Positions 24,186 through 62,346 of a stretch of 64,000 nt of DNA are shown one piece after another; the stretch's first letter is position 1; every line of letters starts with the position of its first letter. The stretch comes from Lineus longissimus (lineage: Eukaryota; Nemertea; Pilidiophora; Heteronemertea; Lineidae): assembly GCF_910592395.1 (NCBI RefSeq), contig NC_088317.1, forward strand, positions 3,596,001 through 3,660,000, given 5' to 3'. The notes under the pieces are model-generated. The model had not been told where the DNA came from. It saw only the letters and a list, made by a program, of their open reading frames with translations, and did no database searches. Made by a program: the position numbers and the translations under genes.

Positions 24186-25143
24186 TGCAATGTAGAACGA
24201 TATTCTGTCCCAGTTAAAGGGACCGTTCGATTGTAAGCGAAAAGTTTACACTAACAGGAGCAGGAAAATCACTACGGGGGGAGTGTAAGTGGTACGATTG
24301 CCGAGAAGGACATATTTTTACATATTTAGACTGCTTCTTGTAAAATCAATTCGCCACACCTGTCCTAAATCGAACATTCTAGTGGTTTAGGGCCAATTAA
24401 TTAGCTACTGGTGGCACGTGTATTCACCAGTCGCACCAAAGTTAAAGCCGAACTAACCCTTAAAACGATTTAATGATTTCGGACAATACTTTTATACACA
24501 TGCATATATTGAACAATTGCAATTGATCGGAGTTCAAAAATCAATTTGTACTTTTAGAAGATGGCGGATATACAAATAGATTGGATATATTCGTGAATAA
24601 AATGTAGATTTTGACTTAAAACCTGAGTGTGATATACTCTTTTAGCAGATAATTTGGTGGTAAGTTATCAGTTTTAAAATACCATCCTATTTTTCTTCTT
24701 TTTATGATCTTTTATCTTCAATTGCTGCAGGAAACAACAAGGATGCGTCCGCGGTATATAAGTTGATCGTATACAGATGAAGCATTGGCGTCCCAGTGGA
24801 TGGCAGTCGGTTCGTCCGACCCCCTTCTTGGGAATTAATTGAAAATGACCGATGATCGAAAATCTCAGTTTCAAAATTAACGCTTTAGCCGCTGTACTTT
24901 TGGAAAAAGTCACCAATCCCCTTTGGAAATCATATGCTCGCTTCCTTCGTGTATACAGCCTGGCACTACGGGCCTCGGCGTTCAGTAAGGACAGTAAGGA
25001 CATCAGACAAGTGGGTCAGGAGCCCAGACTCGTACTGGTGGCGCCGCCTGGTTTGCGGATGGACATTTTTCCTGCTATCGGGAAATGGCTTAACGATGCT
25101 GTCCCTTAATTGTCGTACCATTCATTTCAGGCAATTACTAGCC
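24186..25143. other. Intergenic stretch upstream of the mosaic gene
   Basis: No supported gene. It should include the promoter of the secreted mosaic protein gene that starts at 25144; I see no clear TATA element at a fixed distance. Confidence 0.4.
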
Positions 25144-28100
25144 ATGGTACAAAGACTTTTGTTTCTCTTGATCGTGATTCTTCACAACACTGGTGAGTCA
25201 CTGCCGTGTATTGTTTTTTATTGTCCCCCGTATCTTTGTGTTTCCACACAATAGACATCGACCATAGAAAATGGGATTTTGGTAGGTTTTTGATTGTTTC
25301 TATATCATGTACCAACCCTTAGACGCAGCTGCCAAAGCGAGGCGCAGTTTATGTATAGAAGACAACACTGCATTGAACGAGAACAATCGTTATGATCGAA
25401 AGATTTTGATTGAACCAAGATGTTTTCGAACTGATTAATACTCGTATCAATTTCATCACATTTTAAGTATCACCACCTTTAGGTTCTTTGAGGCACAATT
25501 CTGCAGCTGGCATCTGTCCAAGAAACTTCAGAAAGACTGCGTTTGGATGTTTTTGTAAGTGATCTATGCTAGTTTTTATATTTAGATTCTCCAGTATAAA
25601 ATTATAGCCAATATTTTGAAATAACGCCATGTTATTCGACAAACTAATAGAGGCTACATTTATATTACATCTCTCTGAGGTCTGTAACGCAACTGGAAAT
25701 GTACTTAACCTCTCTATTGATATTAGAGAGGTTGCGCACGCTTACACAACCTCTGTATCATACTCCCTCCCCCAGGTAATGGACCGACGTGGAAGGTGGC
25801 GAAGGGCTACCACCTTCTCCACCACGACGACCGCACCATGCACGGCGTCTCCCATCCAAGGATCTGCCTGCTCTTCTGCATTCGTGAGCGGCGCTTCCTC
25901 TGTCTCTCTGTGGAGTATAACAAGGGGAAACGGATATGTCACCTCTCCAAGGACAATAGAAAAACACTTAGCAAGAAGACCTTTAAACCCAGCAAGTTTG
26001 GTGATATTTACTTCGAGATGTCTTGTTCTCATAAATTAGCAATGCGTAAGTTTCATTTTAACATTTTCTCAATCTTTGATCAGCCATTTTTCCTAGGTGC
26101 AGTGTAGATAGGTGGCCATCTTCTGTTCGTCTACCTCCTTATCGTCAGTCCTGTAGGCATATACATGTAAAACTATATGGCGCAAAAGATGGAGAAAATT
26201 AACCATTCGTTGTCTTAGTTTTTATAACATTGAATTGTTTCTGAGGCAATGGCCCTTTATTGACTTCGCTGCGGTCAGCTTATTTTTCCTCAAAAAAACA
26301 ATATCCGTCTCAGACAAGCCCCTCACCGCAATAACCTTAAAATATTTCAAACATTTGTCTTTCAAAACATTGTAGTTGTATTGCGAACGGTAGACGAAGT
26401 CTTCAGGAAAAGGCTCCAGTTTTGTCTTTACTATAACTGCACATGCGCCAAGTATGATATCATCATCAGAATGAGACGTGTCCAAAAGTTCGTCTGCCTC
26501 GATCAATTTGTTGATGACGTCATAATTCAGTAGTGTTGCAAAATCTTCGAAGTATTCCCTTACAACGAAATCTTTTCCTCTGTTGACACCTTCAGCCCAT
26601 TTTGGGTGCTCTTCAGGAAGATATTTGCGAGATATGACGCCCATGAACAAAGGCTCATTTGCTGAACGATCTGCAAGATAGTGCATCACATTCTCCGGAA
26701 ACACAGTGACGTCATCTTGCGTAGAAATGACGTAGTCCACATTGCCACAGTATTTTTTTACCCACTTGAATCCGTCCATAATATGAGCTCCTTTGCTATA
26801 GTAATTGTACTTTCCCTTCACGATATCAACATATATTCGTTCCTCCTTAAGAAATTTCTGTTTCATTCGCGTGCCGTCTGCAAATCCAATGAGAAAAACA
26901 ACCCGGATTGAAATTCCCGCGTAAATATAAGGATCTCCCCAGGTGCGTCTGATGAGCAGTCGTCTGGTCGTATCTTGCACAGCACTTTTCACAATAATTA
27001 GTAAATTAATTTTCATGTCGCCACGGCAAATTTCATTCACGCTCCTAGCTTTTAACTTAGGTTTAAGAATGGGTATATTATTTTGTACGGCAGCCATTTT
27101 GTTTGTCTTGGCGGCCATTTTGTTTGACTCGGCAGCCATTTTGTATGGGAAGAAGCCCATTTTTTGTTGTTGAATTGCTTCCACCATTTTGGAAAGTTCT
27201 TCATGTCGGGATTCGTGCTTCTTATGTTCCATTGCGAATTTCACGAGAAGCAAGAAGGTCAAGAGAAACCAGACCAGGACGAAGCCTATAGCACAACGGG
27301 CGTGCCGACTAGGCCTCGAGGATGTCATGATTTGAATGCGGCGCGTCATCTTCAGCGAAATTCGCCCAAATCGCAAAGTACTAAGCCTGGTTTCCACAGA
27401 ATTTTAATCCACCAACAATGTTATTATAGAACATTTCAGTGCAATGCCGGAGTAGCTTGCTCCATGGTGCAATTGAGCACAGTCTTTGTCCACGTTTTAT
27501 ATGATATTCTCAGAGTCACACCCGTAACTTGCCGTAACGTTACCGGTTATACTGATCAGAGATTGCCTTGTTTAAATGCTTTTTAGAACACAATTTGGGC
27601 AGCTTTAAGAACGCAAAAGTGGTCTGGAATACGAACTGGCGGCTTTAGACCGGCTGGTTGATTTTCATGATGAGAGAACGATACACGAGTTGTGGCACAA
27701 TCTTCTTTAGGGAACTGAATTCCCTAACATGAATCCCATGAAGACGGGTCGTCACACCTGGAAGGAATATCCAAATGGCAAGCTATCTCCTCTTTGAGTG
27801 TTATCGAGTTGGTCAACACTGCCATCCAAGTAGCCTATTCGTGTACGGGAACCTTCTACTCCAAAATGTGAATAACCTAGTTGTTGTCCAGCTGATACCT
27901 GATTGTGTAATTGATAGGGCATGTTGTCAGCGGATGGGCTGTGATGGTATCTGTGGCATGAAAATGAGCGCAAACCTGTTGCCTTCATATTAGGTCATGC
28001 CATTAAAGGTTGATATTGGAACGCATTAATAGTTTGCCATTTTTTTTCTCTCTCTGTGAAAATTACTCTAGGACCTGGTGTAGAAGTCTGAAATGTCCTC

Positions 28101-31100
28101 GGATAGAATGTCCGGGAACAAAGAGTTCTATGTTGCGCTTAATTTGTCTGCAACACCATAAAACTATATGTATTCTCTGTTGGTATTTATGTTATAATGG
28201 TTAATCAATAGTTGATATACATGTACAAGTCCGCAAATTGAATTGACGATCGCACACAGAAACGCCAGGTGGGACAAAATGCGCACAGCTGTGGCTGCCG
28301 CTTGCAGTGGACCCGCAGCTGACGAAATATCGATGTAGCAGAAACTTCACCGGGCCACTTCGCTGCTGGTTATTGTGATCAGGGAGATATATGATTGTTT
28401 AAATGTGACCACAAAAGTTTGAGTTTTTGTTTCGGACTTGTTTTATAGGTTGTCCGAAAGGCTACACATGGTTTGCAGGGTCTTGTCGTAAGTATAATAT
28501 CGGGTGAAAAATTACAAACCCTTCATAGAAATCACTAAAAAGTCAATGCTAAAATGTGCACTTTACAGCCCAAAACACGTTTTATACACATGTAGGACAA
28601 GGAGTTACGCGTAGATCAAGCTGCGCTTACATGCCATGATGCAGAAGAGGCTGACGACGCAGGTTGATCGGCGTGCAAACCTGATTGGGTTATAACCCAT
28701 GTCATCCGTGACTGATCCACGATTGGTCCATGAAGAATCGTTTCCTACGTTTGAAGGCGCGTGTATGACGTCTGTAGAGCATTTGGGTCAACGACAACGT
28801 ACGTCCGTCGAAAACATAACGGATGCACTTTCTACACTGGGCTTTATTTTGTACGCTCTCCATTACAGACAAGGCCATTAGCAGATGCCATCGGTTCTAT
28901 AGACTGGTAAACGGTAAATGCCAATGTAAGTATGACTTGGTTCACATATTTCCATTTGGGGGTATAGTTGGCTATATGGCTCTGAAACCTTTCCCAAAAC
29001 CATCCAATCCGGCGAAAAAAAGGAGTCTCATTAAAACACAGATGTGGAGCTATACATCCGTGATGACAATTAATACAACGTCAACGTCTGCGTTTTGTTT
29101 CAGTTCGTGCTTGTCCAAAAGGCAAAGTTAGGAAATGGACGGGACGTTTTTTTACCTGTTTAGGACAGAAAAATAGCAAAGTGCACAGAAAAGGAAGACT
29201 TCTCCAAACCGGAAAACCAAAACACCGCAAGGTTGTAACACATCTCTACAGTAGAAAACATCACACGGAAAGAACGCGCCACAAGAAAGAGGCACATCAC
29301 AAGAACGCAACACATAAAAAGAATGGAACACATGACAAGAAAGAAACACATAACGAGAAAGAAACACATGACAAGAAAGAGGCGCATCACAAGAACGCAA
29401 CACATCAAAAGAAAGGAACACATGACAAGAAAGAGGCGCATCTCAAGAACGCAACACATCAAAAGAAAGGAACACATGACAAGAAAGAAACACATGACAA
29501 GAAAGAGGCGCATCACAAGAACGCAACACATCAAAAGAAAGGAACACATGACAAGAAAGAGGCGCATCTCAAGAACGCAACACATCAAAAGAAAGGAACA
29601 CATGACAAGAAAGGAACACATGGCAAGAAAGAGGCGCATCACAAGAACGCAACACATCAAAAGAAAGGAACACATGACAAGAAAGAGGCGCATCTCAAGA
29701 ACGCAACACATCAAAAGAAAGGAACACATGACAAGAAAGAAACACATGACAAGAAAGAGACACATCACAAGAACGCAACACATCAAAAGAAAGGAACACA
29801 TGACAAGAAAGGAACACATGGCAAGAAAGAGGCGCATCACAAGAACGCAACACATCAAGGGAAGGAAACACATCAGAATAAAGGAACACAGTGTGATGTT
29901 GGATTCATTAAACAAAAAGGACGATGTGTTTGTAAGTCTCTTTTTCTTCCAGGCAGTTGTTCACCTTAACCTGTTACTTTTGTCAATAGAACAATCGCGC
30001 AAGTCGATCGTTGCAGCAAAAATCTCCCCTTTGCGGGGCGCTTTAGAACCGTATACACGTAGTACTGATGATCTCTTCCAAACAAAATGACTTTTATCTC
30101 AGTCTATTTTCCATAACCAAGCACTTTCATTGATTTTCAGTCTGGCATTGTCCAAATGGCTTTCGTAGAATACTCAAACGGTCCGGGAAGCTCCCGAGAC
30201 CAGTGTGCAAAGGTTAGTCCATAGAGACGGATTCTAAAATACGTGATACTGTTATTTGAAGGCTCCTTGCCGAATTGCTATTCGCATTCCAGCGTTGAGA
30301 TAAAAACTGTTCTCAACTTTTGTCTATGTCTTTTTTCAGCGTTTCGTCCGAATCATGGCTGTCCCGATGGTTTCGTCCGGTCCAAGTTTGGATTCTGTCT
30401 AAGTATGATAGTCACAAACTATAACATTGTATAAAAAAAGAAATGCTTTCTTGCTATGATATGTCAACAATGACATCAACTGAACCATTTTTGAATTCAT
30501 TTTACCGTTTCTTCCGCTCATCAGCGAAGGAAATGAGGAGCTCTTTAAAATGGACGACTGATATAGTCTGGAGGCAGGTTTCGCAGTCCGTAGGAACGGC
30601 GAAAGACTCTGCTTAGACTAAACCCGACGTACGATTTATTAGTCAAAATAAGATAACGTAACCTCTTTTGATAATTATTTTGCTCATCATTTTCCTTTTT
30701 GCTTTAGGGAAGCCATGCAAAGTTGGATACATTTGGAGAAATGACAAATGCACATGTGAGTCAGCCATATATGTTATTCTTCGCAATTGAAATGATTTCA
30801 ATCTTTATCAGACTATCAAATTTGATATGTAATTTGCGAACTGACCATATCCTCTCTTTTCTTATGACAGTTCGCGGCTGCCCGCTTGGTTTTGTCAAAC
30901 GAAAGTCATCCCGGACATGCCGATGTAAGTATCCGTTCTAAAATAAAAGACAGTATGTAATTTGGGCGGTATATATGAGGAACCTATCTTGGTCATAACA
31001 TCTTAACGCTTTTTCATACTTAGAGGAAATGGTCCTATCCCGTTCTATGATATCCATATCAAACATCATTATTTCCTGCGGACATGTAAGCCTAAGAGAC

Positions 31101-34100
31101 ACGACTAGCCCATCCAAATTGTTAGGCTCAGAGCGTAGTGCTATACCGTCCTATTTTCACATCTATTTCCAGTCAAGGGTTGTCCTTCTGGATACAGACT
31201 TGGCTTCATAAAAGGCATTAGGAGCTGCATAGTTATACGTAAGTTGATTTCGTTTTTTTTGCAAGGATTCTTAAAGTGATCTAATCCCGGCATTCTGGTT
31301 GTGACTCTGCCCTGATGAGATCAATTTGGGACGAAAGGAAGTTAATCACACAACACAACACAACACTCCTCTTTCGGCGTTTCTGAACTCTGCTGCATGT
31401 GGTCTATCTGATTGAATGATTCCGCAATTCCAGGTTGTATGCAGTTCTATCCGGCCAGCCACTCCATCGGTGGTATAAAACTCCGCGGCATCACCACTGC
31501 GGCCCATTGTAAGATGTACTGCATGGAGAGACCGAAGTGCAAGGCGGTGGACTGGAATGCCGGGCGGGCGCAATGCTGGCTGCATGATAGGCCCAGTATG
31601 CTGAAGAGAACACGTTTTGGGATTTCGCAGTTTAGGAAGATACGGCCTTGTACCTTTGAGAGAAAGAAAGGTGAAAATACCTAGGGCGGTCTCAGCTCTA
31701 GGTAGAATTTGAATTTTTGAAATCGGGACAAAAAAATAAACATTGAGAGGCTCACCTTTGCAAGTATAGAACCGTTTTAGTGACACAACATTTTCACATT
31801 CAGTCTAATTTGCGTTGAGCCCCGTCAGTTTCCGTGGCAATATCTAAGAATCTTTTAAAGATATTTCTTAATGTGAATCAAAATTTTCTTGTAAAGTGCA
31901 TGCGTCTCACTTTATCCTTCAGTCAATAAGTGCCCTCCATTCACAAAATTGGTGAGAAAGGATGCCGTTGTGCATTGCATTGGAAATAGCAAACCTCCTG
32001 TTAAGTGTCAGCCAGGGTATCGAAAAACAGGAGGAAAATGTGTTTGTAAGCATATTTCCTTCAATTAATTACTGCCTCCCCTATAACGTCCATGCCAAAT
32101 TATCGGCGGTGAATACCATTCCTAAAGTCTCCTCCTTTCACCGCCGATAACTCCCGCAAGGTAATCTGTCGGACGCACCATAAATGGATGGCCTATCAAA
32201 TTGCTCGACACAAAGTAATTGAATGACGGCCTCAATTGATAGTGCCAACCTCCGGATAAGGTCACCCTTCTTCTATACAGCATGCACTGTGCATTTGGGT
32301 CAGGTCAGCATCCCAGGAATCGTTACTCATTGAACACCTGGTCTTCAATTATGATGGCTTTTTAGCACGTGTCTCGTGCGACAACCACGATTGAGTGTAA
32401 TGCTAGTGTTGTCGCGACAGAGGACGCGTGGGAAAGGAAGGGAATGCAGGGAGACTACCGATAAAGTAACAGCCCTTCTGACAGCCGATCAGGGGAGAGT
32501 TATCGGCGAAGGATGGATATACGCACAACGGCGGTGGATCGGCATGTATAACGTCCGACGCTACTACATCGTTCGTATTACCGTCATTTATGGCTTGATA
32601 CAAATGTTAAATGAGGTCATCCCGTAATTCTACTCATCACGAAAATGCAAGAAACCGACTGAGAACAGGTTGTGTAAAATTCTGATTCAAGTCAGGATCC
32701 TTCTTTAAAAAAAACATTTTTCTGATATTTTCAGTTGTCAGGTGCCCAAAAGGCTGGACGCAGAAGATAAAGGGCGGCACAATTTATTGTGCGCCTAAAG
32801 GTAAACGCCCTCTGTTATCAAAGTCACACAAACTTTAGGGAATTCATCAACGAGACTGGAAGAGATCGGTTCAAAATTGCTTGATGCCGTGAGAGATGAA
32901 CCTTTTCCTCTCTCTCTGAACCTTCTCCCCTCTAAAATGTCGCAATCTGAATGTGAAACTTTAACCATCATCTTCCCAATGACCCCTTGATCCGAATGCA
33001 CACGGTAACACATGTATGACTATTGACTTTGTGCGTCTTGGTGCAAGGGAGCGCGGTTTCCCAAGACGCACGATCGGAACGAAAAGACTCGGCACCTCGT
33101 ACTGCCCGGAGTTCAGGATTTCGATTCTCTGGGGTGCTAGTAGCCTACTTATTTCTTTAATGTAACCTTCATATCTTCAGTTTGCATGAAGAAACTCCTC
33201 CGTACTCATACCCCTGGTGGCAGTCTCCTAAAACACATCCGGACGGACAAGGCGTGTGAAGCGTATTGCAAGTACCATTCCAAATGCGTCTCTGTGGATT
33301 GGAACAGCAAGGAGGGATCATGCACTTGGCATTACAAGGCAAAGAGCGTTCCATGTTCTGTCTTCATTTGGCAACACAAGAAAGTGGGCTGTAATAAAGG
33401 TACGTTTTGATGACCGACTTCCAACAGATAATTGCTCCGAATCTAGTGGTCGAGTTCAAGTGAGCACCTTCTGGTTGCTCCTTGAAACCCCTGATTGATT
33501 TCTGTGGAGACCGGGGTAACAATATGATATCCCAAAGCGCTTTGAGCGAGAACTATAGTGTCACGGAATTGCGCTATATAAAAGACTCATTATTATTATT
33601 ATTTGATACTGAAGTAGAAAAGTGATAGAAAGCTGGAGTAGTTCTTGACCATGACAAGCCCCTTCTTTCATTTGGCAGCAGTGTCTGTTGCTTTCGAGGA
33701 TTTTAATTCCGAATTTCAATGATATTTTGTCATCTAAACCCAATGCGCATGTTTCAAGAGGAAACAGATAAATGCACTACCAACAAAGAATACGATGTAT
33801 GTTATTTGGGCTGTCTCAACGAGTCGTAATTTCATGACAGTATGACTGCATCTTCGTTCTTTCAGCTAAGGTGTTAGTCTGTCACGTTGGATTCAAGCGT
33901 GTAGGAAAGAAATGCATTTGTAAGTAATCTCGGAAGGCTTTAGGCGAAAGCTTTATCAAATGAAATGATATTTTGGTTGAAAAGCATTATCAAAGAAATG
34001 GGAAGACGACATTTTGGATTCATGTGATGTGGTCCTGCCCTGTGTACGTCTGACTATTTGTGATGTTTGCGGATTGTCTACGCAGGAACGAGAAGTCGTC

Positions 34101-37100
34101 TGGTCGCTGTCTGTATCGAATACTCTCCATTTCCACCCATTGGAAAGATGATCATTTAAGCATTGGAAGGAAAACGAATTCGAAGTCTTGTATGATTTGC
34201 GTGCTTTGTGAACCTTTCGCTCAAATTGTCTTTATCTTTTTAGTTGTTCGCTGTCCGAAGGGTTATGCGAAATTCTCAACAAGAAGTATTCCACCGAAAT
34301 TCTTCTGCAAGAGAAGGAAAAGAGGTACGCATGGCAAAAAAGTTTTCTTCATATTTGTTTATTCTTATAATCATGCCATGGTTGTGTAATTCCAGGGCAT
34401 TAGCTGCAGCAAGCAAGGGCCCCCAGTGACCAAAAGGCTAGCTTGTGTGACAGCAGCATAGATAACATTTGATGATACATAGCAACGAAAAGTTACAAGT
34501 ATTCTCTGTGCCCGTGCACCGAGTACGCATTGTCAGATAAATGTACATATTTTTATATTTTATTTCGTTGATTATTATTTCATTACTAATTACATGTACA
34601 GTTTGTCCAAAGGTGAAGTGCAAGAGCGGATGCATTATCAAGATAGGAGCGAACGGCTGCGCGGAGTGTGATTGCAAGGATGGTAAGGAACTCATATAAT
34701 GTTGTCAAATTCATCTGCAATGCGACATAAACGCCCAAAAATCATCAGAAGTGTCCGTTCACCATTACAGCACAATAGAAATCTTTACTTATAACTTTGA
34801 TTCTGCAAGTGATGGAGCATAGATCGCCAAGATGATTCCGCCACTTCCTCCCGAACCAGGTTTGTCAATAGTTCCATATTTTCTTGGAAGACTACTTGGC
34901 AAGCCCGGCTTACCAAACAGCGACTTTTTCTTGTCCTGAATGGAGAGCCGAACTCATTAATATTAAAGTAAAGTCTCCAGCTCGCCAAACAGGGTAGATT
35001 TTTTACCTGTTTGGAAAGCCCGGCTGGCCGAACAGGGTGGCTTTTTAGTGCTGTTTGGCAAGCGACTCTCCAAACAGGACAAAAAAAGATGCCTGTTCGG
35101 CGAGCGGCTTACCAAATAGACCTGACCTATTTTCTTTCCAGAGTGCACATCAAAAGAGGACTGTCCTTGCCACAAGAAGTTGACAAAAACGGGTTGTCGG
35201 TGTTTCTGTAAGTGAACCTAGGCATACTAAGGATTATGCCTAACTGGTACTCACCCTGGAAAAACCATAACGAAAACAAAAAAGAAGCAATTCACCATCA
35301 AGTCGTTTTCAACCGTTTGCTTTAAACGAACGCAGATCCTAGATGACGGAATATTGCCACCTTCTCCAAACAGGTTTTGCTCTTTTTACTCCTTATCGCT
35401 GAACCAACTGCATCTTACTAGCATACGGCCAATGTTCTCATTCGCCAATATTTGAAAATTATGCTGTAGATTTTATTTTTCTGAGCCCTCATTGTAGTTC
35501 ACCGTGATTATTTCCCCCTAGGTTGCCGATTGGGAACTAAACCAGTCTTGGTCACAAACAAAATAAAATGCGTCTGTAAGTATAGGGCCTTTGTTCCTAT
35601 CTAAAAGCTTTCTACGATGTACTGTTCTCGTATCATTCGTATAATATCTTGGCTGCATTTACATCCACTTTTCAAACATAGTGACAGAAAAAATATAACG
35701 AACGAAAGTTATCATTGAACACACATGAATACTCATCAATACATGTAAGTCCTTCGCCATGGTTTCGGGTCCGACACAGTGTACACAGATCCCGGTGTAG
35801 AAGTATAATATGTCCCCTCGGTACAAGTGTCCGACCCTACGGATTATGGTATATGGTGCTATTGAGGCCATGGCCGTCCATAGCCCAGAGATTAAAGCAC
35901 ATAATATAGAATCCTTTGTTCCCCGGACATTCTATCCAAGGATATTTCAAACTGCTACGTGGATATCAAAGCCGTATTTTGTAGTGCTTCCTTTTCTCAT
36001 CACATTTTTCAATCGGTCTTTCTTGTAGTCACCGCCTGTCCAAACGGCTTCAGAGAAGAGAAAGAGATTGGTATACCAATGTGTCGACCCTTGACCAACC
36101 AATGTCCAGCCTTCTATTCCATGTTGACCGACCACAAGTGTGTCTGTAAGTTTAGGCTACACAGGCAGAAGTGTCCTTGCATTGACCTATGATGGTGATA
36201 AACCATCAATGTTCCATCCATGGGCCGTCCATGAATAGATGATGGAGAATCACCATCGTCTATCCATCCATGGACCTCTGTTGATGGGACGTCCATGGGC
36301 AATCATAGATCCATCGACGGAGACTAGTGTAACAGGGGAATAGCGAAAGAGTGTTTTCTATGATGTACGTTATCACGGACACCAACGGGTGAAAGTTCTA
36401 CGGTTTATGGACAAGTTGAAGCTTACGCCATGCCCTAGTCAGCCGAGGCTGATGAAGCTCGCGCCCTCGAAACACGGCTAACAATATACCCGTGACGCGG
36501 CCACGTCTGGTCTATAGCTGTACCCGGCGACCACATTGCTACCCCGTTCTGAATTTGACAGTTTCAGGATGCCCTGTTGGATACAAGGCGGCTGATATGA
36601 AGAACATGTACAAGTGTCAGTGTAAGTAATGTTGCTTAAAAATGGATCAATAATTGCGTTTAAACGAAAATGTGGTAAACATCGTTTTATCCGAAGTAAT
36701 GCCCGGTTACGTAAATGTATGCACATTTACATACTGATGTTATATTTTAAAGTTGTTTCAATTCAAGAAAGTCCACCTGGTGTCAAAGAGCCACCCTGTC
36801 AAATTGTTATATTTCTGCTTATGGTATGTTACAGTTCATAAATGTCCGAAATGGTATCGAGAGAAAAACCACCAGTGCTTGTGTAAGTAGTTCATAAGAC
36901 CAGCAGTGTCGTGTTGGATTAGAGCTCGCGAAAATATTCGCCGATTTGAAAAACCGCCAGAAAGTTGTGGTTTCCAAAATTTTCGCCGATCGCCAGCATG
37001 AAGAGACTCAAACTTTGTTTGTACAGTACATTGTACTTTCTTGTTCTTATTCATCATGATACCAGCAATGTTCTTATAGATCTATGAAAATGTGCAGGTA

Positions 37101-40100
37101 ATGTGCTTTTATCTCAGTGATACATACGAAATTCTAAGGGCACGATAACTTCCTCCTTCTCCATACCCGGGCCCCTCTTTTTATCAAATTTCTATGATGA
37201 GCAAGACGCTATTTGAAATTTTCATTTTCTCAAAAAGTGTCATTTACCCCCACAGTTCAAGGTTGTGGAAAAGGTATGGTGGAAGCAAGCAGGGGTATGC
37301 TTCAATATTGTAGAAAGAAAGGTGTGGACAAGAAAAGTACTGGAATCTCAAAAGAAAAGTTACTGAAGAAACTGACAAACTTGTCGAAGAAGTCTGAACC
37401 AAAGACGAAGGAGAAAGAAATGAAGAAGGGCAAGATTACTAGAGGTGAAGAGAAGAAGAAAAAGAAGAAGATTTCAAAATTACAGACGAAAGCTGAACAG
37501 GAACCAAAGCACAAGAAAAAAGGTCAGCGGCAACTGAAGAATGGTGGCTGATAACGCGAAAGCTTGCCTTCGTGCCGTGAGAGTCTCCACCACTTCCGAC
37601 TCTGAATCAGTTTTCCTAAAAATACTTTGTTGGTAGTCAGACAATTGGTCTGGAACATTTTGAATTTGACATTTGACATAAAGTTCACTGGTATGATGCA
37701 GTTAGGGGTTGACTAAATTACGTCCAACTATAACCCGGTGTGTGATCGAAGATGACCCTCTGTTTTACGTTCTGTCCACAGGCTGTCCGATAGGTTACAC
37801 CAAGAAAAATTTAGACTGCGTTTGTAAGTATGAAGTTTTTGGCAAAAATCACTCGTCAACTAAAAACTTTGTCGAATTAAAAAAAAAAATTAAGTCAAAT
37901 ATTGTTAACCAACAAATATTATCCTCTTTTTTGATTATAGTTGTTGACTGTCCCATAGGATATGAAACCAAGGCAGGAAAATGCACTTGTAAGTATTTAA
38001 TGAAGGTCAAAAGTGTTAAAAAGGTTGTAGTTGGGGTTCTTATAGTCAACGTCATACCCACAAGCCTTGGATCCACTCCGCCGACCCGGACTCCGTAACA
38101 CCGTTATGAGGAGAGGTAACGGACCGAGTAACTCTGATGGTTCAGAATGCGGTATTTCCTGCAACCTATGGATTGAATTTTTGAGTGGAGACTATGGCAT
38201 ATTCATAGTTTTTAATGTCTGTTTGTCGCCCATTTTCTTGTTGTCTTCCAGTTGTCAAGTGTCCGATGGGGTTCGTTAGACGAGGAAGCTATTGCAAACG
38301 TTAGTATGACAATAGTTGACTTGTATATGACGTTAACGCTAACTTTAACATTGGCATCGAAAGATTTACCTCTGTATGTCAACTAACCACAAGTGTTAGA
38401 TTCGCAGGGGCTTAGTCACAACCCATTTTCGTTTGCTTGCTCCAAACCAGCTCCCGGCTCGGCAATGACTAGGGTTGCTCCTAAAAACCGATGTTGCACG
38501 TTGGTGGATAACTTTACATGATATGTCAATCCGGTGTGGCCCCTGGCTTTGCCAACATTCTTCCCTTCGAGGGGCATCCCTAAATCAGCTGTGCTTGTTA
38601 AAGTTTCCATTGTTTTCATCAAGGGACCGCTACAATTTGTCCAATCGGATACAGGGCCAAGGGAGCGAACTGCCTGTGTAAGTGTTCCAGTTGCCATTTT
38701 ATTTTTGGCCGGGTCTATTTGGCAAGCCGCTCGCCGAACAGGCATCTTTTTTTGTCCTGTTTGGAGAGCCGCTTGCCAAACAGCACTAAAAAGCCACCCT
38801 GTTCGGCCAGCCGGGCTTGCTAAACAGGTAAAAAATCTACCCTGTTTGGCGAGCTGGAGACTTTACTTTAATATTAATGAGTTCGGCTCTCCATTCAGGA
38901 CAAGAAAAAGTCGCTGTTTGGTAAGCCGGGCTTGCCAAATAGTCATTTCCTTTATTTTTATGCATAGCACACATTAAAGTCACACCACTTCATTGCTTTC
39001 CTGACAACATGTTACGCAATATAAACCATCATCAAAAATACCACCTCGTTTTCGGGTCAAAATCTGAACCTCTCTGACAATCATTTCAGTTTACGAGTGT
39101 CCAACTGGGTTCAAAAAGACAGGAAACTACTGTAGCCGTAAGTACGAAATCTTCTTTTCATGATTTTAGTCTGCTATGGAAATAGTAGAAAGCAATGAAA
39201 ATTTCTTTTTTGATTTTATAAATCTCTAAATCTTTCAATTACACCGTCTGATGCTTTTGCTCATTCCAGGGTCGTGCCACCTTCACTATAAACAGGTCGG
39301 GAGAGTTTGCCTCCGTAAGTATGAATTTACAACAAATGAGCGTTCAGATTTGATACCGAACTGGACGTCTCTCTCAAACAACGCACGAGTCACGTGGAGT
39401 TGATAGGTAGGCCGCAAAAAACCGAGTCGACAGTCGACAGTGCCATCAAGACGACTTACCGTATTCAGATATATGCTAGGTTTTCCTGCGTTTTAAAACC
39501 CAACTGTCTTTTTCAGCACACAGCCATTGCCCGCATGGTTTCAAACGCACAAACCAAGGTTGTAGCCTCCCATCGGAACCTGCTGTTGGTGAGTTGCGTC
39601 GGTCGAAATCTGAGGTTGCGGCCATGAAAGGTTTCCGAATCTTTGAAAACGTCCGTATCAATTTGGCTTTTGTAACATACCTAAGGAGTGAAGCTTTGAA
39701 GTTGACGGACTGCCTGACAAAAAACTTCACCACAACCTCACTAGTTACATCGTTTCTTTTCAGACAACCTGAAAGCTGACATCGTCATTGCAATCGAGTC
39801 GTCAGGAGACTTGGAGCAGGAGGACGTGGTCCTAGCCAAGAGTTTCGGCGAGCTGCTCATCAGCTCCCTGCCTGTCCCATCAAGCCACACGCGTTTCGCG
39901 GTGATCGTCTACGGGAAAGAGACAGAGATCTTGGGACGGCTTGACAGCTTCAAGAACGCAGAAGAAGCAATGCATAAAATTGGTAAGTGGAGAGAGTGAG
40001 GTTAGTCTCGATGATGTCTGAGGACGAGGAGGACCCAAAAAAAGCATGTAATGCAATAGCCAGTGCATGATTGATACAAGTTTATGATATGGCCCTACAC

Positions 40101-42576
40101 TGTTCATGGGGTCCTGTTTCCCTCTGTTCAAAATAAACTCCTTTGGCTCAAACTCGTTCAAATATATTTTCCTAATCAGATTCCATCAAGAAGAAGTCCG
40201 GGGATGCTGATGCTTTCCCAATGTTGCGAAAAGCTGCAACGGTTCTCTTCGGCCCCGGAAACAGAAAGGACGCAGCGAAAACCCTGGTCATCATCGGCAG
40301 CGGGGAAACCACGCGCAAGACGAAGGTCGCCAAAGCTGCCGAGCTGCTGCGGAAAATGGGCATCAGGATTTTCTCCTTCGCGTTGGATGACCTCGCTGAT
40401 GCCAAGTTTCAATGGAGTTTGACGTATCCGGGGTTCAGGTTCCAAGTTTCACGGAAGGACGCGCTGGATTTGGTCTCCATTGTTGTGCCGACTATTGCCA
40501 GGGGTAAATCTTCTTATTTGGCTGTGGTCTAAGGACACACTAATGAAATATTGTTAGTGTGAAAGCGATCAATTGAATACAAGATCGTTGTCAGTTTTTA
40601 ACAGTTCGGTGAAAATAGGAATCCCCCAGGGCCAACACAACGTGCTGTCATTCTTTCTTTTTCATCTTAATCTCTCTGACTGAATATAATTTTGTTGCAG
40701 ATGTCGTTTGCAAGACAGACGAAACCAGGGTTGGTGAAACGTGTTACGAACTCAGTATGGGTGAGTGGTCCTAGTCGAATATTTGAACGCTATGTATATT
40801 TCCGATGGTATCTGCATCCAAATACATTTAGTTTATATTTCTGACGTTAGTTTAGCTACCATAAGCGAAAGCGTTCTATTCTTCTATAATTGCAGTTAAT
40901 ATCTGCCCCGTTGGATACAGAAAAAAGGACGACACATGCGAATGTAAGTACATGTATATGAGCCATGTATCAGCTACTTTTGGTCTAAATTTACTGGACT
41001 AATTAGTCACCTGGCTTGTGATACCTAACCTCGTCCCTATATACATACATGTATGAGCCAGCCAACTTCAAATTCTTCAGAAGCTTCTACTAAACATGTA
41101 TATGATGAAGGTGAATTTCAAAATGTATGACACCATCTGTTAATTTAAACGTTTTCTTAGTGTATACATTATGTAAACTATTATATTCAGTTACGACGAA
41201 GTGCCCTGGTGGTTATGAGATGGTCGGAAAGCAATGTCTTCCAACAGTAAAGAATATCAAGGGCATCTGCCCAGTGGGTTATGCCCATGATGGTCACAAG
41301 TGCAAACGAAGCAAAGTTAAAGACGGTTGCCTTCCAGGTTTTGTCAACGAGGACGGCGCGTGTGTTTGTAAGTTTATCGACAATCGAAGTTGTCGGTATT
41401 TCGTTTCCAATTTCTCGTTCTCGATTATGCATTGTCCGATTCTCGCAAGTACTTTTAGATACTTTGGACATTGAATATCAGATGAAGAATAGCATTTTTT
41501 CAACTATATTCTTACATTTAATATGCGAAGTCACCAATACCCAGAGTATCATTTTCTCGTCGATCGTAGACATTGTATATTTGATGTTTTGTTCCAGATA
41601 AGAAATGTCCGAAGTTTTACAAACGATATGGTGATCTCTGTCTCGGTGAGTATAATCAAAACAAAGTAAGATTAGTCTTCATCTAATTTAGGTACATTTT
41701 CTTTCCTACATCATTTCTGACATAGAAGTGATATTCATTAAATGGCGAATTTAAGTTCCGAAATGCAAAATCCTCAATGAATGATTTTCGGGAATAGCCA
41801 CTGCTCGAGTTGAGCAAAATCTATTTCATTATTTGATTGCCTCTGAATTCATCTTGAATTCTTTCTCTGTCTATCGACTACCTAATTAATGCACTCGCTA
41901 TTTTTTAACTTCACACATTTTAGGTAAAAGCGTAACAAGAAAAACTAAGGAGTTGGGAGAGAAGCAAACGCTGAAAGAAACTGGCAAAAAGAAGTCGAAA
42001 GTTATAATAAACACGAAATTCAAACTGAAAAATACCAAAACGAAAGCAGTGAAAATTGGGAAGAAGCTGAAAGGAAAAATGAAGCTGAAGGGTAATGGAG
42101 AGCAACAGAAGGCAAGGAAAGTAATGGTACCAATGGGGAAAGTAATGGGAAAGGTAAAGGAAAAGGAAAGATTTAAAGGAAAAGGAAAGTCAAGTGCAAA
42201 AAGTAAGGCAAAACGGAGAGGGAAATCAAATTTGAAAGGGGATGGACATTCAAGTTTAAAAACTAAACCCAAAGGAAGGAGGAAACCAAAATTAAAGGAA
42301 ATCAAATCAAAAGAAAAAGAAAATGGCAAGAAAAACGAGGGAGAACACATGAAAGTAAAACCGATCAAACTGAAGCCCGAGCAGGTTGGGAAGACTCAAC
42401 CTGTGAATGTTAAAGAGAAAGTCCCACACATATCCAAGGTTAAAAAGCTCGCCACGGCGCATAGGAAGCTCGGAGTGTCGTCCAAGGAGAAAAATCGCCC
42501 AAAAACTAAACTTCTTGATGCAAAACAGAAGATTACGAAAAAGATGGACCTCGCTAGTGTACGGAAGGCCGGATGA
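25144..42576 (+). CDS. Secreted modular protein: Cys modules, PAN, VWA, His/Lys-rich blocks (38 exons)
   Basis: Thirty-eight exons join into 1,656 residues. In order: 25144-25192, 25483-25554, 25776-26045, 28449-28487, 28869-28925, 29104-29931, 30141-30212, 30340-30396, 30708-30755, 30871-30924, 31173-31238, 31434-31670, 31923-32045, 32735-32800, 33181-33399, 33866-33919, 34244-34324, 34602-34682, 35142-35207, 35522-35575, 36029-36145, 36562-36621, 36835-36882, 37256-37522, 37782-37823, 37941-37988, 38252-38299, 38624-38677, 39090-39137, 39270-39314, 39517-39588, 39764-39982, 40180-40503, 40701-40760, 40896-40943, 41191-41367, 41598-41645, 41924-42576. Every internal exon is a multiple of three and phase 1-1, so any subset can be skipped without breaking the frame. 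Exon 1 is a signal peptide (MVQRLLFLLIVILHNTG). Most small exons encode one module of the form CPxG[YF]...C-x-C, for example GCPIGYTKKNLDCVC. The product is secreted and very basic. I do not recognise an orthologue. A matrix, shell, adhesive or mucus protein is my inference. Individual borders of exons 8, 22 and 28 are the least certain. Confidence 0.85.
25776..26045 (+). other. PAN/apple-like exon 1 of the mosaic gene
   Basis: Ninety residues with the PAN spacing: CLLFCIRERRFLCLSVEYNK followed by RICHLSKDN, and a closing C near the end (MSCSH). The C-x3-C-x6-C-x(n)-Y-x(n)-C-x-L pattern matches PAN_1 domains, which bind proteins or sugars. It is preceded by a cysteine module (CPRNFRKTAFGCF) in exon 2, tying the two to the same gene. 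Confidence 0.7.
26222..27397 (-). CDS. Beta-1,3-glycosyltransferase-like protein (GT31), single exon
   Basis: An intronless 391-residue type II membrane protein. It has a short cytoplasmic N-terminus, one membrane segment (CAIGFVLVWFLLTFLLLVKF, about residues 36-55), a stem, and a GT31 catalytic domain. Motifs: RRLLIRRTWGDP, VVFLIGF, YNYYSKGAHIMDGFKWVKKY, a DxD-type site in VISTQDDVTVFPEN, and SDDDIILGAC in the place of the usual EDVYVG. It should transfer a hexose or HexNAc in beta-1,3 linkage in the Golgi; the donor cannot be told from sequence. The stem contains three KMAA repeats (KMAAESNKMAAKTNKMAA). It lies antisense within intron 3 of the secreted mosaic gene. The start could also be the Met at residue 17 or 24; all keep the membrane anchor. 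Confidence 0.9.
   Translation of the reverse strand: METRLSTLRFGRISLKMTRRIQIMTSSRPSRHARCAIGFVLVWFLLTFLLLVKFAMEHKKHESRHEELSKMVEAIQQQKMGFFPYKMAAESNKMAAKTNKMAAVQNNIPILKPKLKARSVNEICRGDMKINLLIIVKSAVQDTTRRLLIRRTWGDPYIYAGISIRVVFLIGFADGTRMKQKFLKEERIYVDIVKGKYNYYSKGAHIMDGFKWVKKYCGNVDYVISTQDDVTVFPENVMHYLADRSANEPLFMGVISRKYLPEEHPKWAEGVNRGKDFVVREYFEDFATLLNYDVINKLIEADELLDTSHSDDDIILGACAVIVKTKLEPFPEDFVYRSQYNYNVLKDKCLKYFKVIAVRGLSETDIVFLRKNKLTAAKSIKGHCLRNNSML
29104..29931 (+). other. His/Lys-rich repeat exon of the mosaic gene (exon 6)
   Basis: An 828-base exon opens and closes with cysteine modules (ACPKGKVRKW...C and CDVGFIKQKGRCVC). Between about 29270 and 29875 it is a tandem repeat built from an 18-base unit (KKGTHD / KKEAHH / KNATHQ), with a higher-order period of 54 bases. 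Nine copies of KNATH, plus one NGT, each give an N-glycosylation sequon. The block is rich in His, Lys and Thr and would be strongly basic, with potential for metal or polyanion binding. Because the period is a multiple of three and lacks stop codons in several frames, long overlapping ORFs appear on both strands; these are by-products. Confidence 0.85.
29270..29875 (+). repeat. Coding minisatellite, 18-base unit in 54-base higher-order repeats
   Basis: Copies of AAGAAAGGAACACATGAC, AAGAAAGAGGCGCATCAC and AAGAACGCAACACATCAA alternate in fixed order through the exon. Near-identity of neighbouring higher-order units points to recent unequal exchange, so copy number is likely variable between individuals. 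Confidence 0.92.
31434..31670 (+). other. PAN/apple-like exon 2 of the mosaic gene
   Basis: Seventy-nine residues in one symmetric exon: ITTAAHCKMYCMERPKCKAV then DWNAGRAQCWLHD, with flanking cysteines at both ends. This matches the PAN core (C-x3-C-x5-C-x(n)-W/Y-x5-C-x-L). It is clearly related to the exon at 33181-33399. Confidence 0.75.
33181..33399 (+). other. PAN/apple-like exon 3 of the mosaic gene
   Basis: Seventy-three residues: TDKACEAYCKYHSKCVSVDW then NSKEGSCTWHYKA, with terminal cysteines. The VDWN core is shared with the exon at 31434-31670 (AVDWN), so the two arose by exon duplication. Confidence 0.75.
33446..33603 (+). mobile_element. SINE, 3' part, in an intron of the mosaic gene
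   Basis: It repeats the body of the SINE at 10295-10545 almost exactly (TGGTCGAGTTCAAGTGAGC through CACGGAATTGCGCTATATAA) and ends in an ATTATTATT tail. The tRNA head is absent, as in a 5'-truncated insertion. Confidence 0.9.
34602..34682 (+). other. Antistasin-like exon of the mosaic gene
   Basis: Twenty-seven residues in one symmetric exon: VCPKVKCKSGCIIKIGANGC then AECDCKD. The spacing C-x4-C-x3-C-x8-C-x2-C-x-C fits antistasin-like repeats, known from leech and other protease inhibitors. It is a single copy, so an inhibitory role is not implied. Confidence 0.6.
34885..35125. repeat. Interspersed repeat, copy 1 (inverted partner at 38704-38945)
   Basis: A repeat of about 240 bases, built internally from the motif TTGGCAAGC..CTNNCCAAACAG in alternating orientation. 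It occurs in the intron before exon 19 and again, reverse-complemented and nearly identical, in the intron after exon 28. It has no coding potential. Confidence 0.9.
37256..37522 (+). other. Lysine-rich exon of the mosaic gene (exon 24)
   Basis: A 267-base symmetric exon. It begins with a cysteine half-module (GCGKGMVEASRG...QYC) and continues as a lysine-rich helix-prone block (KLLKKLTNLSKKSEPKTKEK, then EEKKKKKKISKLQ). The donor is taken as AAAAAAG|GTCAGC, which keeps phase 1. If unspliced, the frame reads on to a stop at about 37551, which would give a short isoform. Confidence 0.7.
38704..38945. repeat. Interspersed repeat, copy 2, inverted relative to 34885-35125
   Basis: Near-identical reverse complement of copy 1, including the central AAAGTAAAGTCTCCAGCTCG segment. 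It lies directly after the donor of exon 28. Confidence 0.9.
39764..40503 (+). other. VWA domain of the mosaic gene (exons 32-33), metal site lost
   Basis: Two symmetric exons (39764-39982 and 40180-40503) encode about 180 residues of von Willebrand factor A fold. Strand 1 is ADIVIAIESSGDLEQEDVVL, strand 3 is TRFAVIVYGKETEI, strand 4 is KTLVIIGSGETTRK, and strand 5 is MGIRIFSFALDDL. The canonical DxSxS motif reads E-S-S-G-D, the loop that normally supplies a Thr reads SGDADAF, and the TDG motif of strand 4 reads GSG. The MIDAS site is therefore degenerate, which suggests metal-independent or structural use. Confidence 0.85.
41924..42576 (+). other. Lysine-rich C-terminal exon of the mosaic gene (exon 38)
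   Basis: A 653-base last exon encodes about 217 residues with no cysteine module, dominated by Lys and Gly with repeats such as KVMGKVKEKERFKGKGKSSA and KTKPKGRRKPKLKEIKSKEK. It ends KMDLASVRKAG and stop. The block is highly positively charged and would bind polyanions such as acidic proteins, sulfated polysaccharide or nucleic acid. Confidence 0.85.
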
Positions 42577-47638: not shown

Positions 47639-50600
47639 ATGGGTAGATCAAGAAGTAGAAGTCGGTCGTCTAGTAAACATAGACACCGAAATAAGCACAA
47701 AAAGCGTAGAACGCGCTCCAGATCTCGCGACAGAAACCGAAAAACCAGCAGCACTGCCAGCAGACACACAACGAGATCGCGCAGCAGGAGCAGAGATCGT
47801 CGAAACGACAGAGATCGTAAAAGCTCCAAAGCTAGCAGGTTTGGGCTTTTGTCAGTATTTTGTCCTATGCTGTACATGGGGCATGTATGTATGGTCTGGG
47901 CGTGTCCGGCCATAGTGACTACATCGTGGACATGGCCATGGGTCATTCAACTCATTGGGTGGAATGACCAGTCAGTCACGGAGCACGGGCATTCGTGTCT
48001 AGACGTGTGTCGATGGTCATGCTGCTTGCCTATGAATCATTGAATGCCAACACTAAGAATCTGATAGTACATCCTTTGATATGAAAACGATCGTCTTATA
48101 TACGAGTTTTGAATTCACGTAGATTGTAAATGTATAGCTGTGTTCATTTCAGAAAACGTTCATATTCATCGAGTAGCAGCTCAAGTACTGATGAAAGCGA
48201 CTACTCAAAAGAACTCACCAAAAAGATTGAAGAGGCCAAGCGGCGAGAAGAGGAGGAGAGAAATCTGGAACAGGAACGCCAGCGGCTTATGTAAGCAGAG
48301 TGATGGAGATTGGAGATAATTGCACCTACAGTCCAAGTCACAAATGACATCCATCCTTGGTGTCTATTATAGAAGTGTGTCCTAATAGAGAGGTGTCCGC
48401 TAAGGGAGATTCAAGTGTAGTTTGTAAGTCTCAGCTGCCAACTTTTCATTTGAGAACTTCTTTATTTGCAGTCGACAGAAAGAAATGGAAGAAAAATTAA
48501 TAGAGGAGGAGGTAGCCAAGAGGGTGGAAGAACTGGTTGCCAAGAGGGTGGAGGAAGAACTTGCCAAGCGAAGTGAGGAGATCGAAGAAGAGGTCCTGCG
48601 GAGAGTCGAGGAGGCAAAAAGCATCATGGAAAAACAGATGATGGAGGAGTTAGAGAAACAGCGGGCTGTAGAACTGGAGAGCCAGCGTGTAAAAGAGGTA
48701 CGAATACATCTGATTTGTTGTGGGGTGGGCGTGGCTCTGGGCAGCGGCCAGAGCAGGGGTTACCCAAGTTAAACCATTACATTACCATTAATTCCAGCGC
48801 AACTGTTTTTTTGCACTTGCAGTGCTGTTTTAGTCTGCCTTGGTGAAGTTCTGACAAGTCTCTACGGATGTGATTTGATGTTATTACCATCCCCAGTTAC
48901 AGCTCTGTTAACTTTTTGCCTTGGATACACCTATCCTTGTATGAAACAGAAACAAACGATAAGACTCGGTCTCTGAGAATTTGTGAGGTGAAAAAAGCTC
49001 CGTCAAGAGATCTGTCGGGCTAGGTTTCGCCCTGGTCGACTACAGCAGCACAGCCTGCCTCCTGTACAACACGGTGGTGGCTTCAAAATGAATTTCCCTA
49101 ATGCAAGAAGAAGGCAAGAACATTGGAATGATCATATCCTACCTAGTTTTGTTGCCTTTTTTGTGGTTATTTTTCAACAGAGTCGTTGTTTAAAAAACTT
49201 GTGTCTAACATGTGATATTCTTCTACATGTACATGCAACACTCTCAGTATTTAAACATGTCTAAGTTTTATAATTCAAACTTTCTAAAATGTATAGAATC
49301 ATCCCTCTTGCTCATGTCAGGTATCACCTTGGTAGAACTATGATTTGAGAGTTGAAAGAAAATGGTACCAATCGTTTGTGATTTGATAGACTGGAATTGA
49401 TCTGATCTGTTCAAAGAGTCTTTATGATATTTTCAAAAAGCGTTCTGTTTGGTCATTCCATGTTCTTGCCTTCAACTGCTGTGCAAAATTTTACACTTTC
49501 TGGCCCATATTCATGAATGATAATTTGGTGGTGTGATGAATACATATTGTGTTCTTTGTGGCATAAATGATAGTCCCTGCAATTTACACTTGAGGCATGA
49601 GGCAGGAATGGAAAAGAAAATGATGAATATGCCGTTCCAATTCTATATAGTCTGTTGTGAACAGACTATGTTGTGTAATCAAATCTCTTTGGACACAAAA
49701 TGTGAAAAATAAGAAGAGTCCCCCATGTTTATATTCCTGCCTCGTGTTTCATGTACCCTCGATTTGCATATTGGCATAGAGGTACTTAGGGCTGGAGTGG
49801 AGACGTGAGATTTTGGTTGATGATATGGTGCAGTCTGTTTGGGCTCTGGCCAGGTTTTCCGCAAGGTCCCATTCCAGTCCTCAGTGTCTTCAATGTTCGT
49901 GCATTCTCTCTTTTAGTTATGTGTTTCTTCCTTCATTTGTTATATAATTTTTGATTGTGTGGGTGTCTGGTGGGGTCAGCTCAGCTTTGACCCCGGGAAA
50001 GTGAGATCGTGTGACAATGCGAAATAGTTCCTCCTATTTTGCAATTGCTTACTCACAGACTCACACATTTGAGAGTCATTCAATAAAAAATAATTTCTTT
50101 AAGCTGAATGCCGCAAACCTTTATTTGCTGTGAATTGCTTTGCTTCTTCTAGTGCAATTTAAAACTTTGCTATTTAGGCAAGTAATCTGCAATTTTGTTC
50201 GTTATAAAATGCCCCACACAATCATACAAATTTTTGTGGTAAAATTACATGTATTGTGTAGTTTTTTCGCAAAATTCTTGCATGTTTTGGTAATAAAAAC
50301 ATTTGTATAACAAATCATACAATATATCAACTGAAATATGATGTTTGAAATCACAAATTCTGTTGTTGTGTGTCTCGTTTTATTCATGATACAGCAAAAA
50401 CTATTTTTCGAAAATTTGGAAAAATAATGATTAATATTTTTGTTTCAATGTAAATACGATTGCATAGGCTGCCTCATTGGCTCTGCAGCTTTCACTGTCC
50501 CTTAAAAATCAGCTAAAAAGATAAGAACAAGTTTGTATGATATTAGACAACCATGGTGCGATCTATCTGTGCTTTGGTGGCGGTTTGACAGATGTATTGG

Positions 50601-55854: not shown

Positions 55855-57075
55855 AAGCCTGGGTTGTGACAATGTCTCCATGTCTCGGGGGCCATTCAGA
55901 TCCTTTTCTGTTTCATCCTGTACAACCAAAAATATTGCATGCTGCCAAAGAAGCTGGGTCGTGACATTGTCTCCATGTCCCAGGGCTGCTCGGAATCTTC
56001 TGTTTTATCCCACATACATGACATGGCAAGAAATATTGCAACAGTGTGGCCATTTGGATAGAGATAGGTTGTGACGATGTCACCAAACCCTTTTGGTTCT
56101 GCAGCACGTACCTCTTCTTATGCATCCTGTATAAAGCAAAAAAGATAGCAACACATGGCCAGTTTGGGCATTAGAGATAGGATGTGACGATGTCTTCATG
56201 TCTTGGGACCGTTCAGATCCGTTTCTGATACATCATGTATTGCAAGAAAGATTGCAACGCAGTATGGCCAGCAGTTGGTGAAGCAGAGATAGGTTGTGAC
56301 GATGTCTTCATGGCCTAGGGCACAACAGATCATTTTCTGATTCATCAGTAGCAAGAAAGATTGCAACAGTATGGCCACTTGATGCTACAGAGATAGATTG
56401 TGACGATGTCTTCGTGTTCGTCTGGTTTTACATCTTACATCTGGTATGGCAAGCAAGATTGTCACACGGCCCTTAGGGGCCACACATATAGGTTGTGACG
56501 ATGTCTTCATGTCCTTGGACTGGTCAGGTCCTTCTCTGTGTTTCATCCTGTGACCTGTATAACAAAAAAAATGCAACAGTATGGCAATGGCTGTCTTCGG
56601 CAGCAGGGAAACAGGTTGTGGCAATGTCTTCATGTCCCAGCGCTGTCCAGGTCCCTTTCTGTTTCATCCTGTATATCAAGAAAGATTGCAACACAGAATG
56701 GCTACTTGGTACGACGGAAACAGATTGTGACGATGTCTTCATGTCCCAGGGCTGTCCAGGTCCCTTTCTGTTTCATCCTGTATATGAAGAAAGATTGCAA
56801 CACAGAAAGGCTACTTGGTACGACGGAAACAGATTGTGACGATGTCTTTATGTCCCAGGGCTGTCCAAGTCCTTTTCTGTTTATCATATGTCCCAATGTC
56901 AACCAAAGTACGGTTTGGTGTGGCAGAGACGGGTTGTGACAAAGTCTCCATGCGCTCTGGTTTTTACAGCTCTTTTTCTGATGATACATTGTATTTCCAA
57001 GAAGGGTTGCAATAGTATGGCCTTTTGGTGCGAGAGAGATTGGTTGAGACGATGTCCGAATCATGTTCTAGAGTG
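55855..57075. repeat. Tandem repeat array A, unit about 100-115 bases
   Basis: About ten to eleven diverged copies of a unit containing GGTTGTGACGATGTCTTCAT ... CCCAGGGCTGTCCAGGTCC ... TTTCTGTTTCATCCTGTAT ... AAGAAAGATTGCAACACA ... ATGGCTACTTGG. GACGATGTC anchors recur at about 56071, 56186, 56296, 56399, 56495, 56728 and 56837. The two units at about 56620-56835 are nearly identical, so they duplicated recently. Confidence 0.92.

Positions 57076-58343: not shown

Positions 58344-62346
<4,003 letters not shown>

Follow-up and report, generated by a model that had tools for sequence, protein, structure and literature searches.

A 38-exon gene for a predicted secreted, lysine-rich mosaic protein, and its relatives, in the ribbon worm Lineus longissimus

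We analysed a 64,000-nucleotide (nt) stretch of chromosome 10 of the heteronemertean ribbon worm Lineus longissimus (C10:3596001-3660000, hereafter the window), in which one gene on the + strand, at 25144-42576, is predicted to encode a secreted mosaic protein. Coordinates without a chromosome prefix are positions in the window, and C10, C3 and so on denote chromosomes of the assembly searched (391,118,348 bp, 30 contigs). The gene comprises 38 GT-AG exons with phase-1 introns and a coding sequence of 4,977 nt. As judged from sequence, it belongs to a set of several mosaic loci in this genome. In these loci VWA domains occur together with two-cysteine modules encoded by phase-1 micro-exons, most loci add Lys- or His-rich blocks, and the extra domains vary by locus: PAN, fibronectin-II, kringle or F5/8. 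The gene model and the gene family are well supported. We infer a function with moderate confidence: the product would be a secreted basic scaffold of an extracellular material (slime, proboscis glue or connective matrix) assembled from EGF-fragment modules, PAN domains, a metal-dead VWA domain and Lys/His blocks.

Open phase-1 exons with GT-AG sites were listed, and lower-threshold and gap exons were then added. The resulting chain of 38 exons, which a first-pass annotation of this DNA had also proposed, was rebuilt from the ATG of a hydrophobic leader at 25144 to a stop at 42576. The unbroken frame of 4,971 bases claimed there was recovered exactly with acceptor 36568 replacing 36562 in exon 22; 4,977 nt reflects the choice made in the present model. 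The joined frame holds a single, terminal stop, and the remaining two frames hold 55 and 89. Because exons were picked by a phase-1 rule, the uniform intron phase is partly a matter of construction. A test made without that rule took the best-scoring splice sites near each of 18 CPxG[YFW] motifs: the acceptor was phase-compatible at all 18 (P = 2.6e-9) and the donor at 15 (P = 1.9e-5). Scanning all six frames of the window placed 18 such motifs on the + strand of the interval and 0 on its − strand, with 0 and 1 on the + and − strands elsewhere in the window; 500 mononucleotide shuffles of the interval gave a mean of 0.09 and a maximum of 2. Candidate two-cysteine phase-1 micro-exons numbered 25 on the + strand and 0 on the − strand of the interval; the other 46.6 kb of the window have 10 on one strand and 3 on the other. 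Uncertain ends are found at exons 2 and 36, which have weak acceptors, and at exons 3 and 24, where multiple donors can be chosen. A single secreted mosaic gene is supported.

The conceptual protein has 1,658 residues, including a leader peptide, with a calculated mass of 188 kDa and an isoelectric point of 10.0. It contains 6% Cys (99 residues) and 17.6% Lys, and K+R residues number 391 against 128 D+E. Exon 1 (25144-25192, donor score 10.4) supplies the start codon and the hydrophobic leader MVQRLLFLLIVILHNT, the top one among four hydrophobic first-exon candidates in 24500-42000, in agreement with the signal peptide noted earlier. Three PAN-like exons were likewise borne out, with Pfam PAN_1 above the curated cut-off of 21.4 bits in all three stretches (43.4, 27.1 and 22.8 bits; E = 1.4e-12): exon 3 (25776-26045, E = 3.1e-11, alternative donors possible), exon 12 (31434-31670, E = 3.8e-6) and exon 15 (33181-33399, E = 8.6e-5). 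A PDB sequence search with the first PAN domain (E up to 0.1) returned no match, and a structure model of PAN from the three window exons (predicted local distance difference test score, pLDDT, 43.6) was set aside. The VWA domain scores 68.3 bits against a curated cut-off of 23.8 (E = 6.5e-17) and is split over exon 32 (39764-39982), in which the first motif of the metal-ion-dependent adhesion site (MIDAS) is altered, and exon 33 (40180-40503), in which the third is altered (GSG for TDG); over the two exons joined, Pfam gives E = 1.3e-18. The three basic blocks, also described before, contain in order 26% K with 19% H, 39% K and 30% K. They correspond to exon 6 (29104-29931), which has cysteines on both flanks, exon 24 (37256-37522), where several donors are possible, and exon 38 (41924-42576), which encodes the Lys-rich C-terminus and the stop and is followed by AATAAA at 42597. 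The block in exon 6 is an 18-nt tandem repeat inside a 126-nt unit, and the exon carries 10 of the protein's 11 N-glycosylation sequons. A near-match search of phages with the Lys/His block found none.

Most other exons encode one two-cysteine module each. They are exons 2 (25483-25554, CPRNF...C, weak acceptor), 5 (28869-28925), 7 (30141-30212), 8 (30340-30402), 11 (31173-31238), 14 (32735-32800), 16 (33866-33919), 17 (34244-34324), 20 (35522-35575), 22 (36562-36621, alternative acceptor 36568), 31 (39517-39588) and 34 (40701-40760), together with the micro-exons 4 (28449-28487), 9 (30708-30755), 10 (30871-30924), 23 (36835-36882), 25 (37782-37823), 26 (37941-37988), 27 (38252-38299), 28 (38624-38677), 29 (39090-39137), 30 (39270-39314), 35 (40896-40943) and 37 (41598-41645). 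Exons 13 (31923-32045) and 21 (36029-36145) each hold two modules with four cysteines, and exon 36 (41191-41367, weak acceptor, alternative 41161) holds three. Exon 18 (34602-34682) has six cysteines and exon 19 (35142-35207) five. Exon 18 resembles antistasin by eye only; Pfam lists no family at exons 18-20 (34602-35575), and the antistasin-like exon of the first-pass annotation is not upheld. A marginal Antistasin score falls elsewhere, at exon 31 (21.6 bits against a cut-off of 21.2). Searched as a whole against Pfam, the protein shows only PAN and VWA above cut-off, with no EGF, chitin-binding, collagen or integrin family. Copies of a dispersed repeat (translations such as LFLSCLESRLPNSTKKPPCSAS) lie in two introns of the gene, at about 34972-35108 and 38700-38862.

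The modules had been counted as some 30 CPxG[YF]...C-x-C units. The CPxG[YF] part stands: a pattern search of the window exons found 30 two-cysteine units, a few of which may fall outside true modules since the pattern is loose, and the distance from Cys to Cys is exactly 12 residues in 21 of them. Exactly two cysteines occur in 24 of the 27 exons of 30 residues or fewer. The C-x-C part was rejected, because its second cysteine is mostly readthrough of the donor site: a T at the exon end followed by GTAAG at the intron start, if read through, translates as Cys-Lys. Of the 37 spliced junctions, 14 encode Phe and 2 encode Cys, and the true unit after splicing is C-P-x-G-[YF]-x(n)-C.

This unit shares the core C-P-x-G-Y-x(n)-C with the cEGF domain (PF12662), and a 160-residue stretch of tandem modules from a paralogue reaches the cEGF model above cut-off (E = 4.5e-11). 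At C10:3829001-3837000 (+), a VWA gene carries a complete EGF_CA domain (Pfam E = 1.6e-8) directly preceded by a two-cysteine unit that scores below cut-off against cEGF (E = 0.0089); this order, a two-cysteine module and then EGF_CA, plus VWA, is possibly the ancestral arrangement. A single-sequence AlphaFold model of the three modules of exon 36 shows two hairpins (pLDDT 63.9). On the strength of the paralogue match, the sub-cut-off score before EGF_CA and the hairpin model, we regard the module, with moderate and not firm confidence, as an EGF domain's last loop that has come away from the four cysteines before it. The resemblance was demonstrated for the paralogues; the window's own modules, which stand alone without those four cysteines, miss the model.

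Searching the genome with the window VWA domain gave 16 matches, two of which are the gene itself; the best of the others lies at C3:23747027-23747545 (35% identity, E = 1.4e-20). A search with the modules (E up to 1) gave 18 matches, those beyond the window falling at C10:1.159-1.184 Mb, C3:22.05-22.07 Mb, C3:23.72 Mb and C17:7.93 Mb, and 187 kb around the module-match loci and two further places were taken for exon prediction. On the − strand of C10:1.137-1.190 Mb, automatic phase-1 exon prediction outlines a larger locus with the layout of the window gene; we treat it as a locus that could be one gene or several. It contains PAN, a Lys-rich exon, modules, several VWA domains, paired fibronectin-II-like exons, a 2,454-nt exon of CKKGETMVKGKCEKK repeats and further Lys-rich blocks, with 33 predicted exons, mostly micro-exons, at 1.138-1.148 Mb. 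Among the pieces tested with Pfam, one fn2 pair reaches E = 1.8e-30, one VWA E = 2e-22 and one PAN_1 just the cut-off. A LamG-like exon was a guess by eye and was dropped, as Pfam lists only Pentaxin there (E = 0.088, below cut-off). Since this paralogue starts with a phase-1 signal-peptide exon (1189903-1189828) and ends with a Lys-rich exon whose stop lies at 1137631, the layout of the window gene recurs end to end. Some of the automatically predicted paralogue exons must be wrong, because three C10 junctions yield a stop and the exon at C10:1143876 contains a dispersed repeat. That repeat, at C10:1143876-1143715, is of the LFLSCLESRLPNSTKKPPCSAS type also seen in the window.

Other relatives carry other domains. 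Pfam identifies a kringle at C3:23.7215 Mb (E = 6.6e-24) and an F5/8 domain at C3:22.074 Mb (E = 8.8e-14); candidate exons of similar appearance lie at C3:23.727 Mb. A relative nearer to the window gene, at a distance of about 210 kb (C10:3.404-3.412 Mb), combines modules and VWA pieces with a Lys-rich exon. The first-pass description of one secreted mosaic gene is supported, its layout being repeated at a paralogous locus, and the gene is one of a family and not a singleton. Further module matches lie in a 950-residue open frame near EGF-like exons at C17:7932800-7935500 (+) and in a 324-residue open frame at C1:8945440-8945814 (+).

The metal site of the VWA domain was compared across 17 sequences: that of the window, 13 of the 14 other genome matches (L005-L017) and three more from the clusters, a small sample given that the genome holds at least 157 VWA matches. 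The window domain reads ESSGD for DxSxS and GSG for TDG, and so lacks a standard MIDAS. Across the 17, the third motif is T-D-G in seven, T-N-G in L013, T-S-G in L017 and without Asp in eight, including the window. We labelled as family the eight that have an Asp-less third motif and lie at a module-bearing locus. The third-motif Asp is present in none of these eight and in seven of the nine others, and the full DxSxS in none of the eight and five of the nine, a contrast that is partly built in because the labels used the loss of Asp and because L010 and L013 also lie at module loci. In a tree of the 17 domains, one branch parts the eight from the nine (support 86/90), and the window groups with L005 (93/91). 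Twelve near-equal-scoring VWA matches at a regular spacing of about 1.9 kb, each with an in-frame TAG, lie at C7:5692693-5714273 (−).

The leader, the charge, the sequons in the Lys/His block, the many small disulfide units, the PAN domains and the metal-dead VWA domain are the grounds on which we interpret the protein as a scaffold in extracellular material; slime, glue or connective matrix would be its likeliest role. The modules, as one-disulfide EGF fragments of the cEGF type, may line up as small hairpins in a long rod. Sugars or proteins could be ligands of the PAN domains, and the VWA domain, its metal site being degraded, might have a docking or structural role that needs no metal. Acidic polymers, metals or surfaces would be bound by the Lys/His blocks, of which the first is rich in N-glycosylation sites. 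The basic scaffold would condense with acidic mucopolysaccharide into an extracellular material, for instance slime of the epidermis, glue of the proboscis or connective matrix. Every internal exon is symmetric, with phase 1 at both ends, and its gain, loss or skipping leaves the reading frame intact; this would account for the divergence among family members. More tentatively, the family may represent a class of giant structural proteins of the ribbon worms' own. Such proteins would consist of EGF fragments with a single disulfide, encoded by interchangeable exons of about 48-60 nt, together with metal-dead VWA domains and polycationic blocks, and would form a coacervate with acidic mucopolysaccharide to make slime, proboscis glue or the pseudocnida capsule; we consider this broader proposal doubtful.

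Several observations weigh against the scaffold reading or the steps that lead to it. The module array of the window (111 residues) matches neither the EGF nor the cEGF models of Pfam, and finds nothing in the PDB by sequence at E up to 1. A second paralogue score against cEGF (5.7e-8) was not counted, because junction residues in the query string had been guessed, and the low-confidence hairpin model is a hint only. In L010 and L013, at or near module clusters and labelled as others, the third motif is canonical or close to it, and the locus at C10:3.404-3.412 Mb also has a VWA piece reading ILSDG. The VWA tree has long branches, with strong support in 2 of its 14 inner branches. A mucus study of another pilidiophoran nemertean uses none of the terms VWA, EGF, PAN domain, kringle, mucin and structural protein in its main text (PMC11768458).

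The style of the protein had been likened to that of shell-matrix or adhesive proteins. A role in shell or byssus matrix is excluded because the host is a ribbon worm, and nemerteans are not known to make either. Pif and BMSP are secreted, charged shell-matrix proteins with VWA and chitin-binding domains; they share with the window protein a VWA domain in a secreted charged chain and differ in chitin binding and in shell, Pfam finding no chitin-binding domain in this nemertean protein. The adhesive half of the comparison fares better, as an adhesive or mucus role is possible by analogy. The limpet proteins P-vulgata_1 to 14, from adhesive mucus, are mosaics in which EGF, lectin-like, kringle and antistasin-like domains occur; they differ in that vWFD is among their commonest domains, and the terms VWA and lysine are absent from that main text (PMC7333891). 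Garden-snail mucus contains VWA proteins (PMC10475054), and matrilin-like VWA/EGF genes are named as adhesive constituents of the semislug Megaustenia siamensis, among the adhesion genes with higher expression in foot than in mantle (PMC11178922). In one hoplonemertean the proboscis mucus is described as sticky, and genes up-regulated in the proboscis include those for adhesion and matrix, mucins and fucolectins, as well as collagen XII and homologues of von Willebrand factor (PMC9132205).

The strongest competing explanation, which we hold to be possible though unlikely, is a structural protein of the extracellular matrix of connective tissue or basement membrane, akin to matrilin or collagen VI, rather than slime or glue. 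In the PDB search, the best whole-chain score of the window VWA domain is to collagen VI alpha-3 (E = 2.6e-7), a value summed over many VWA domains with no single stretch passing 0.001, and integrin alpha-M comes second (E = 2.8e-5); collagen VI alpha-3 and integrin alpha are thus its top sequence matches, whereas Pfam finds no collagen or integrin parts in the window protein. A VWA gene with a complete EGF_CA domain on the same chromosome also fits this explanation. Matrilin-like proteins resemble the window protein in joining VWA with EGF or EGF-derived modules. Matrilins have complete, six-cysteine EGF repeats beside VWA, and a C-terminal coiled coil. That combination of VWA with complete repeats is absent from the window protein, in which Pfam finds no EGF family; two-cysteine modules, three PAN domains, Lys/His blocks and a degraded MIDAS are found instead. 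Its C-terminus is Lys-rich, and neither so high a Lys/His content nor two-cysteine modules are typical of matrilins.

That two or more genes were falsely joined, say one with PAN upstream and one with modules and VWA downstream, is improbable. The phase rule was imposed by the analysis, polyadenylation-like hexamers occur within the interval, a weaker hydrophobic ATG-led stretch runs from 24852, and hydrophobic ATG-led stretches at 34192 and 34541 (+) read into exons 17 and 18. Scored acceptors follow those two ATGs, which the model therefore assigns to introns, and as alternative starts they are possible but unlikely. Against a false join stand the absence of an internal stop in the joined frame, the phase agreement that persists without the phase rule, and the C10:1.137-1.190 Mb locus with its like start and end.

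Slightly less probable still is a role in immunity or defence, in which the protein, as a cationic agglutinin, would bind microbes through its PAN domains and Lys/His blocks. PAN domains and the strong positive charge would suit it, as would the F5/8 lectin-like domain of one relative, and the fucolectin up-regulation in the proboscis of a hoplonemertean was interpreted as immune in that study (PMC9132205); the size, the long repetitive basic blocks and the many small modules would better suit a material. That the gene is decaying, or that unrelated exons with no product were strung together, is very improbable given 4,977 nt over 38 GT-AG exons free of internal stops, although the degraded MIDAS might point that way.

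The mosaic genes, with their shared signature of two-cysteine micro-exons, MIDAS-less VWA domains and Lys/His blocks, provide direct candidates for secretome data, and the family indicates how part of an EGF domain, once encoded by a symmetric micro-exon, could become the main building unit of large proteins. The nemertean works examined treat mucus and proboscis secretions mainly for their toxins and, in the portions available, define no structural protein family. Our literature search found no publication uniting shell-matrix protein, PAN and VWA, or VWA, Lys-rich, EGF-like and adhesive protein, which is not proof of novelty. The architecture called undescribed in the first-pass annotation accordingly has no matching description that we found, and its novelty is not thereby established.

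Other features share the window. On the − strand at 26222-27403, within the 2.4-kb intron 3 of the mosaic gene, a single-frame reading of 393 residues matches a galactosyltransferase (PF01762, E = 9e-18) and is apparently a nested gene on the opposite strand. An ARGLU1-like neighbour lies at 48428-48769 (+; PF15346, 2.2e-17) and a TAF6-like one, with TAF6_C just at the cut-off, at 60986-61378 (−). Minisatellites occupy 57073-57898 and 56173-56882, in arrays whose repeat units measure 71, 112 and 109 bp.

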